Positions 1-1,098 of a stretch of DNA of 39,275 nt are shown here, piece by piece; positions within the stretch are counted from its first letter, which is position 1; every line of letters starts with the position of its first letter. The DNA is from Clostridiales bacterium DTU089. GTDB lineage: Bacteria; Bacillota; Clostridia; Oscillospirales; Acutalibacteraceae. The notes under the pieces were generated by a model, which ran no database searches, was not told the origin of the DNA, and saw nothing but the letters and a program-made list of their open reading frames with translations. The position numbers and the translations under genes are program-made. The stretch is from contig LFSB01000005.1 of assembly GCA_001513045.1 (NCBI GenBank), positions 1 to 39,275 of the forward strand, in the 5' to 3' direction.

Positions 1-1
1 G

Positions 2-31
2 AAAAAAGCACTTCTTCGGAAGTGCTTTTTT
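2..31. terminator. Bidirectional terminator-like hairpin, repeat unit 1
   Basis: A 13-bp perfect stem with six A on the left and six T on the right encloses a TTCG loop closed by C-G, the very stable UUCG tetraloop class. It has the form of an intrinsic terminator on both strands. Confidence 0.7.
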
Positions 32-314
32 CAGTTCTATTCGCAAAGCCAACGAAGTTGGCTTATGGCGAGTGATATTGCTTCGCAGTGATATTCGGCT
101 ACGCCGAGTGATATTTGCTCCGCAAGTTTTAGAGGCGAATAGAATATCACTGTGGCGGCAGCCACAATATCACTCTTGCTGTAAGGCAAGAATATCACGC
201 CGCGACAGCGGCATATCACTTATACTTTTGCGCAGCCGAATACCTCACTTGTTTGCGAAGCTTCAAATCTCTCCACCAAAAAAGTGAAAATATCTTTTTA
301 TACATGAAAGACAG

Positions 315-344
315 AAAAAAGCACTTCTTCGGAAGTGCTTTTTT
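315..344. terminator. Bidirectional terminator-like hairpin, repeat unit 2
   Basis: This is an exact copy of the hairpin at 2-31, at the same place in the second unit. Confidence 0.7.
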
Positions 345-628
345 CAGTTCTATTCGCAAAGCCAACGAAGTTGGCTTATGGCGAGTGATATTGCTTCGCA
401 ATGATATTCGGCTACGCCGAGTGATATTTGCTCCGCAAGTTTTAGAGGCGAATAGAATATCACTGTGGCGGCAGCCACAATATCACTCTTGCTGTAAGGC
501 AAGAATATCACGCCGCGACAGCGGCATATCACTTATACTTTTGCGCAGCCGAATACCTCACTTGTTTGCGAAGCTTCAAACCTCTCCACCAAAAAAGTAA
601 AAATATCTTTTTTATACATGAAAGACTG

Positions 629-658
629 AAAAAAGCACTTCTTCGGAAGTGCTTTTTT
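629..658. terminator. Bidirectional terminator-like hairpin, repeat unit 3
   Basis: This is an exact copy of the hairpin at 2-31, at the same place in the third unit. Confidence 0.7.
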
Positions 659-942
659 CAGTTCTATTCGCAAAGCCAACGAAGTTGGCTTATGGCGAGT
701 GATATTGCTTCGCAGTGATATTCGGCTACGCCGAGTGATATTTGCTCCGCAAGTTTTAGAGGCGAATAGAATATCACTGTGGCGGCAGCCACAATATCAC
801 TCTTGCTGTAAGGCAAGAATATCACGCCGCTACAGCGGCATATCACTTATACTTTTGCGCAGCCGAATACCTCACTTGTTTGCGAAGCTTCAAATCTCTC
901 CACCAAAAAAGTAAAAATATCTTTTTTATACATGAAAGACAG

Positions 943-972
943 AAAAAAGCACTTCTTCGGAAGTGCTTTTTT
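943..972. terminator. Bidirectional terminator-like hairpin, repeat unit 4 remnant
   Basis: This is an exact copy of the hairpin at 2-31. It is the only part of the fourth unit present; the ATGAAAT ladder follows directly after a TCA. Confidence 0.7.
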
Positions 973-974
973 CA

Positions 975-1098
975 ATGAAATAAATCCACTATGTGGATTT
1001 ATGAAATAGCTGTCGCTATGAAATACGCCTTCGGCGCATGAAATGCCTGCGGGCATGGGGGATTTTTTTTATTTCATGTTGCGATAGCAACATTTCAT
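975..1098. repeat. Hairpin-ladder element, ATGAAAT family
   Basis: It has the same design as the array to its left but a different joint. ATGAAAT occurs at 975, 1001, 1018 and 1038, and its complement ATTTCAT at 1071 and 1092. Between the joints are short stem-loops: a long-stem hairpin at 982-1000, AGC/GCT at 1008-1017, CGCC-TTC-GGCG near 1026-1036, GCC/GGC at 1045-1054 and GTTGC/GCAAC at 1078-1091. A run of eight T lies at 1063-1070. No protein gene is apparent. The abutment to the GTGATAT array suggests one element inserted beside or into the other (inference). Confidence 0.7.

Follow-up and report, generated by a model that had tools for sequence, protein, structure and literature searches.

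The hairpin repeats at the start of the DNA analysed here, a stretch of 39,275 nucleotides from contig LFSB01000005.1 of Clostridiales bacterium DTU089 (hereafter the window), are probably solo copies, gene-less and MITE-like, of a selfish element with hairpins as its target and with an intervening sequence protein (IVP) gene in its full form. The linkage of IVP genes to arrays of short words, the agreement between word and protein clade, the location at tRNA/tmRNA genes and terminator stems, and the differing content at one site were all computed directly.

Results

The array and its units

Positions 1-974 form one array with a period of 314, 3.1 copies and 98% matches (TRF), with direct-repeat copies beginning at 1, 314 and 628 (Table 1). 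The word GTGATAT and its inverse ATATCAC occur 31 times in the window against 3.7 expected, a count reached by 0 of 100 shuffles, and 20 of the 31 fall within 1-846. TRF, repeat starts and joint counts all confirm the 313-bp tandem hairpin ladder with GTGATAT/ATATCAC joints that an earlier note had read from the sequence. Each unit runs from a terminator hairpin through TTCTATTCGC, hairpins separated by GTGATAT, and GCGAATAGAA to hairpins separated by ATATCAC; with its words first direct and then inverted, it is flanked on both sides by matching 32-bp terminator hairpins. The three direct and four inverted joints that had been given for every unit are present in units 1 and 3, but in unit 2 one direct joint is mutated (ATGATAT, 401-407). 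Stem-loops do form between the joints, in 10 of the 11 segments tested (1-320 and 971-1110). As for the 10-bp stem said to tie the unit together (35-44 with 135-144), its arms are complementary but do not pair with each other in the minimum-energy fold of the + strand. The closing arm TTCTATTCGC was found again in GTGATAT-type ladders outside the window.

The array begins at the contig start, and the unit count is that of the units inside the window. Contig C28 ends in 62 bases that match unit positions 1-62 with 100% identity, and there the tRNA genes Gly-Arg-His-Gln directly precede the terminator hairpin and these first 62 unit bases; from this identity and the upstream tRNA-Gln, the array appears to sit behind tRNA-Gln(TTG) of C28. 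The unit tail and the spacer before tRNA-Gln on C28 have TTTTTTATACA in common.

A second ladder, overlooked in the earlier note, lies at 975-1098 with the joint ATGAAAT/ATTTCAT and adjoins the fourth terminator copy directly. The layout suggests that the GTGATAT units arrived between tRNA-Gln and an older ATGAAAT ladder, beside which the triplication would have arisen by local amplification behind tRNA-Gln. Behind the second ladder, at 1204-1229, there is a 26-bp relic (88%) of the unit tail TTTTTTATACATGAAAG.

Table 1. Ladder features at the start of the window, with coordinates, strand and basis or remark.
Feature	Position	Strand	Basis or remark
Tandem array, three 313/314-bp units and fourth terminator hairpin	1-974	+	gene-less (solo) GTGATAT-type hairpin ladders
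Bidirectional terminator-like hairpin, unit 1	1-32	.	sequence, inverted repeats; repeats 314-345, 628-659, 942-973
Closing stem, left arm TTCTATTCGC, unit 1	35-44	+	sequence
Closing stem, right arm GCGAATAGAA, unit 1	135-144	+	sequence
Direct joints GTGATAT, unit 1	72-78, 88-94, 108-114	+	motif count
Direct joints GTGATAT, unit 2	385-391, 421-427	+	motif count
Direct joints GTGATAT, unit 3	699-705, 715-721, 735-741	+	motif count
Inverted joints ATATCAC, unit 1	144-150, 167-173, 192-198, 213-219	-	motif count
Inverted joints ATATCAC, unit 2	457-463, 480-486, 505-511, 526-532	-	motif count
Inverted joints ATATCAC, unit 3	771-777, 794-800, 819-825, 840-846	-	motif count
Gut-1 match (Rfam RF01706), unit 1	50-119	+	50.9 bits, cut-off 50
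Gut-1 model, unit 2	363-432	+	49.2 bits, below cut-off
Gut-1 match, unit 3	677-746	+	50.9 bits
Gut-1 match, second ladder	973-1049	+	58.6 bits
Second hairpin ladder, ATGAAAT joints	975-981, 1001-1007, 1018-1024, 1038-1044	+	sequence
Second ladder, inverted joints ATTTCAT	1071-1077, 1092-1098	within 975-1098 (+)	sequence

Match to Gut-1

The earlier note recognised no known RNA in the repeat, and that view does not hold, since Rfam Gut-1 matches above its cut-off at units 1 and 3 (just) and at the second ladder. Its covariance model corresponds to the left half of an ATGAAAT/GTGAAAT ladder, CAATGAAAT-H-GTGAAAT-H-GTGAAAT-H-GTGAAAT. A described family, which the earlier note had set as grounds for refutation, has therefore been found, but one without known function and with a model that covers the left half only. 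While the model matches units 1, 3 and 973-1049 of the window, the inverted right half, the other words, the gene-linked forms, the tRNA/terminator sites and the IVP gene are absent from it. The passages on Gut-1 in Weinberg et al. 2010 (PMC2864571) describe a noncoding RNA that has no affiliation with mRNAs and was found in human gut sequences alone, and likewise do not mention the inverted half, the other words, the gene-linked forms, the tRNA/terminator sites or the IVP gene.

Copies in the genome and in its relatives

Fourteen separate ladder places, the window included, were found in the genome by DNA search and the Gut-1 model and read by eye; their words are GTGATAT and ATGAAAT/GTGAAAT. 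Nine of them have an intact tRNA gene immediately past the terminator. Examined as possible MITEs, the window elements have dispersed copies in these 14 places, one of which (L004) is IVP-linked, with PF05635 starting right after the ladder, and is a candidate autonomous relative. At L004/L032 (C50 near 89.2 kb) the GTGATAT ladder is directly upstream of the IVP gene and a separate ATGAAAT ladder is found about 0.6 kb past its 3' end. No PF05635 gene was detected in the window by tblastn; membership of the IVS/IVP group by an encoded PF05635 is seen in the same-word copies L004, L096, L155 and L238.

The ladder grammar was also searched in relatives and is present there. Gut-1 is patchy: of 60 related genomes, 39 have it, with as many as 48 matches in one genome, and it was not found in three members of the same genus (G004, G010 and G019), in both cases under strict filters by which weak matches are lost. 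Among 29 Gut-1 loci of different genomes (L168-L196), 20 have a tRNA/tmRNA gene, six of these being tmRNA. Most ladders are solo: an IVP gene is the neighbour at one of the 14 own places and at five of the 29 loci of the relatives (L179, L185, L186, L187 and L191).

Many intergenic copies of hairpins with a constant foot tag are also found in REP/BIME-like repeats, which would be mobilised on single-strand hairpins by RAYT or an IS200/IS605-type Y1 transposase. GTAG-tagged REPs with RAYTs are described in PMC3733652, where REP/BIMEs appear as extragenic palindromes with an unpaired tag, proposed to be miniature transposons. For the ladders such an origin is very improbable, since the associated gene is PF05635 instead. 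Unlike in REP/BIME, the tag is a family-specific 7-mer that stays constant while the hairpin sequence varies, and no Y1 transposase is associated: Y1_Tnp (PF01797) is found in 16 of 39 genomes with Gut-1 and in 8 of 21 without, and was unmatched in the genome of the window at E 0.001. The joints, GTGATAT and ATGAAAT, moreover match neither GTAG nor CGTC.

Word arrays at IVP genes

At gene-bearing loci the end of the ladder is followed immediately by the start codon of a 23S-rRNA-intervening-sequence protein (PF05635, TIGR02436), a family whose genes are named solely by fold or by IVS. Among solved structures 2rld is nearest in sequence (1.1e-30), with a weak match to 2gsc (4.4e-5). One IVP, that of L096, is weakly similar to Avd of diversity-generating retroelements (bAvd, PF22296; 0.00026 in Pfam and 1.5e-5 in NCBIfam, both below cut-off).

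The IVP set comprised 30 loci, 114 stretches among the PF05635 matches listed and eight genes from ladder loci, of which 151 had enough upstream DNA. A count with only two words gave two ladders at the 30 loci; reading the loci revealed other words. An array was defined as an exact 7-mer with two or more direct copies upstream and two or more inverted copies either upstream or downstream. By this rule 112 of the 151 PF05635 genes among the matches listed have word arrays (the rows are statistically dependent, and L096 and L238 appear to be the same locus represented in duplicate), compared with 37 of 1500 positions drawn at random in Clostridia loci. Seventy of the 112 have an upstream ladder, 57 have direct words upstream and inverted words downstream, and 15 have both. 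The remaining 39 of 151 genes among the matches listed are without an exact array, and the exact-word rule overlooks some clear ladders (L155, L244, L247, L250). The words at IVP loci include GTGATAT, GTGAAAT, GCGATAT, GTGATGT, AATGAAG, GTTATGA, ATGATAT and TGAATAA, and the loci are of two anatomies, either a hairpin ladder wholly upstream or hairpin-poor arrays on both sides. Segments between joints form a hairpin in 169 of 238 cases, compared with 50-59 of 236-238 after shuffling.

Word and protein agree. On a tree of 64 labelled IVPs, a quick one of few columns with 87 of the 151 genes unlabelled and a word list chosen from the results, 13 changes of word are needed, where the minimum is 11 and shuffling gives a mean of 43.7 (none of 200 shuffles was as low). 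In the set of 60 genomes, Gut-1 and PF05635 are both present in 36, Gut-1 only in 3, IVP only in 6 and neither in 15 (Fisher 5.5e-7, with genomes taken as independent despite their relatedness). Both the word-protein agreement and the co-occurrence can stem from simple co-inheritance. The IVP genes are under purifying selection, with a median dN/dS of 0.05 and a largest value of 0.14 in 25 same-word pairs that are not independent. The IVPs of L292 (G009) and L295 (G059), from different families of the order, share their word and are 95% identical with a dS of 0.62, a similarity that hints at horizontal transfer.

Among named records both phage matches and 12 of the 25 plasmid matches were opened, and by the same score arrays are present at 13 of these 14 loci, those on the two phage scaffolds and on plasmids from Cyanobacteriota, Bacteroidota and Spirochaetota (including Nostoc, Bernardetia, Euhalothece and Treponema); at the IVP locus of a Monoglobus plasmid this score gave no array. 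In the unverified phage scaffolds L371 (MT835815.1) and L372 (MT835590.1) a ladder is followed by an IVP gene, in L371 behind an apparent tRNA; these two and the viral contig L167 reflect either phage carriage or bacterial contamination. On Nostoc and Dolichospermum plasmids (L376-L381, L384) inverted heptamer arrays (AATTCGT, GTCGCAA, GAGGTCG and others) flank the IVP genes. They look like the short, tandemly repeated heptamers of cyanobacteria, which might derive from IVP elements.

Location and turnover behind tRNA genes

A tRNA/tmRNA gene ends less than 420 bp upstream of 49 of the 151 IVP genes listed, the nearest being on the IVP strand in 49 of 49, whereas in the downstream control one lies within 420 bp at 5 of the 151 listed. 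By class, the upstream tRNA/tmRNA is found at 31 of 67 upstream ladders, 0 of 43 flanking arrays and 18 of 41 genes in neither class.

At the tRNA-Gln site of the window 16 congeneric loci were examined, of which 15 were readable and one was without the tRNA end. The 15 hold five word families or nothing: GTGATAT at one (the window's own), GTGAAAT at four plus a similar one cut at the contig end, ATGATAT at one, TGATGATA at one, TATTCATT arrays at two (one cut) and nothing in 420 bp at five. Recurrent insertions and losses at a favoured target would produce such a pattern, and we infer that the ladder element moves. No transposition event was seen, and no clean empty/filled pair with a target-site duplication was found, the closest (G006 versus G017) differing in the terminator too. 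Behind tRNA-Gln at L198, L202, L204 and L205 there is a second, partial (degenerate) tRNA-Gln 3' half; the partial T-arm stem encloses a hairpin insert (e.g. GCGAGGTTCG...CGAACCTCGCCATCCCTGCCA), which looks like a T-loop insertion.

Such degenerate tRNA halves, like the tRNA/tmRNA 3' location itself, would be accounted for if IVP genes and ladders were no more than passengers in, or relics of, a larger integrative element with a tyrosine recombinase acting at tRNA 3' ends. We consider this quite improbable, because the tRNA-linked elements lie outside the tRNA and beyond an intact terminator, with the tRNA ending 130-400 bp before the IVP gene, many rumen copies are in terminators, and IVP genes with flanking arrays have no tRNA link (0 of 43).

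Terminator arms in rumen genomes

A search with the 16-mer GTGATATTCTATTCGC matched at least 117 stretches of named genome records, mostly MAGs of Clostridia/Oscillospiraceae and many with rumen or hindgut titles. Of 120 core matches among those listed, 78 passed the ladder filter and three were in viral contigs, only one of which (L167) reads as a ladder, and a viral origin was rejected. A tRNA scan around the 120 core matches listed found an adjoining tRNA in 4, with 6 too short to judge.

The rumen element is made up of a left module, the ladder and a right hairpin. It is often enclosed by the arms of a terminator stem specific to the locus, and several such elements directly follow a stop codon. 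In L070, for example, the terminator arms CAAAGAAACATCGGC...GCCGATGTTTCTTTG enclose the element. Complementary arms were scored with G/C weighting in a fixed window, and 16 of the 78 ladders were omitted for contig ends or missing end motifs, including L063 and L068 with perfect arms by eye. At a score of at least 14, arms flank 28 of 62 rumen MAG elements among the matches listed against 58 of 3782 mispaired controls, and 34 of the 62 listed are without them. Other thresholds gave 32 of 62 against 243 of 3782 (12), 18 against 14 (16) and 12 of 62 against 2 (18). Ladder identity is 59-96% in 16 pairs of loci, each pair from one MAG; the host flanks are 42-56% identical in the six pairs where they are comparable. 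The 20 best orthologues of the L070 host gene (69-75% identity) carry 0-3 joints scattered over 700 bp and, judged by eye, mostly have a plain terminator; one of these loci, L404, carries a GCGATAT-type ladder further down. At best, these orthologues likely show the ancestral state.

The rumen ladders carry their far-side module (GGGTATGGGC...GCCCGATGCATTTGT...) in one orientation in L155, L087, L094 and L140 and in the other in L063, L064 and L068, as if this module were invertible or separate. In L056, L144, L156 and L161 a longer, nested hairpin takes the place of single ladder hairpins or enlarges them, and in L156 one GCACTTAC..GTAAGTGC hairpin is inserted into two ladder loops.

Strand signal and a possible role as RNA

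If the ladder were a structured noncoding RNA, as Gut-1 is annotated, it would be transcribed as a free RNA, a 5' leader or a 3' end with its hairpins kept for RNA function, for instance as an autoregulatory leader bound by IVP or as an RNA antitoxin. G-T pairs are in slight excess over A-C on the IVP strand in the stems of IVP-linked ladders (77 to 57; stricter 9 to 3), as such a role would predict, but no clear overall strand signal emerges, the rumen ladders giving 191 to 144 and, by the stricter count, 5 to 22. The yardsticks were 51 to 2 in tRNA acceptor stems, at fixed positions and hence not like for like, and 21 to 41 in T-arms and anticodon arms with the same finder as the ladders; the stricter finder favours Watson-Crick stems. 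Gut-1 is classed as an sRNA in Rfam, the unit folds far more stably than shuffled sequence (z -8.7 and -8.3 on the two strands), the ladder ends directly before the IVP start codon where that gene is present, and rumen ladders, being often inside host-gene terminators, would be transcribed. An RNA function, including the leader and antitoxin forms, nevertheless seems unlikely to us, as at 13 of the 14 own places the ladder is not directly followed by an IVP gene, and patchy presence and turnover at one site are ill-suited to a conserved host RNA.

Discussion

We favour the reading of the window repeats as solo copies of an IVP element. The full element would consist of a host tRNA/tmRNA or other gene, a terminator hairpin, a ladder with its 7-mer first direct and then inverted, and one IVP gene. 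The IVP would bind the cognate array of words and hairpins, as DNA or RNA, and bring the folded element to hairpin targets, while solo ladders would be mobilised in trans or be remnants. The four-helix bundle of PF05635/TIGR02436 is not known to be an enzyme, so that the chemistry of cutting and joining would have to be borrowed from a host nuclease, the replication fork or another element. The classical IVS, found in loops of 23S rRNA helices, would reflect this process acting on a different hairpin, with the targeting of hairpins as the common logic, in terminator loops, at tRNA/tmRNA 3' sides and in 23S rRNA helices.

Among the roles that the earlier note had offered, a mobilised element fits best, given the many copies per genome, the patchy presence, the target preference, the turnover at one site and the linked protein gene; it may be mobilised as a single strand. 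The other candidates, a DNA-protein scaffold or a long structured RNA, may also be roles of the ladder.

The protein family is by name that of the S23/IVP ORF of 23S rRNA IVS, a selfish genetic element according to PMC4990558. There a small tetraloop of a 23S rRNA helix is replaced by the IVS stem-loop, and this 2016 paper, more than 25 years after the IVS had been described, still calls its function and origin unclear (PMC4990558). In contrast to 23S IVS, the sites here are terminators and tRNA/tmRNA 3' sides, the window copy being apparently behind tRNA-Gln and not in a 23S loop, the ends are arrays of a 7-mer word, often with variable hairpins in between, and solo copies are common.

More tentatively, IVP genes across bacterial phyla might mark a large class of transposable elements without recognisable transposase, in which a non-catalytic bundle reads a family-specific 7-mer, direct to one side and inverted to the other and often with variable hairpins in between, and delivers the element into hairpins of terminators, tRNA/tmRNA 3' sides or 23S rRNA; Gut-1 and the classical IVS would be members, each word family with its own protein. 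In the open-licence literature no paper was found that joins Gut-1 with IVS/IVP or that deals with word arrays at IVP genes or with mobility of Gut-1.

If the link is true, the IVP family would gain a testable role, the reading of word arrays, and Gut-1 would no longer be an orphan RNA. With one 7-mer word per protein clade, the recognition of DNA or RNA by the protein would be directly testable. The short repeat arrays behind tRNAs and terminators of gut bacteria and those around cyanobacterial IVP genes would then have one explanation.
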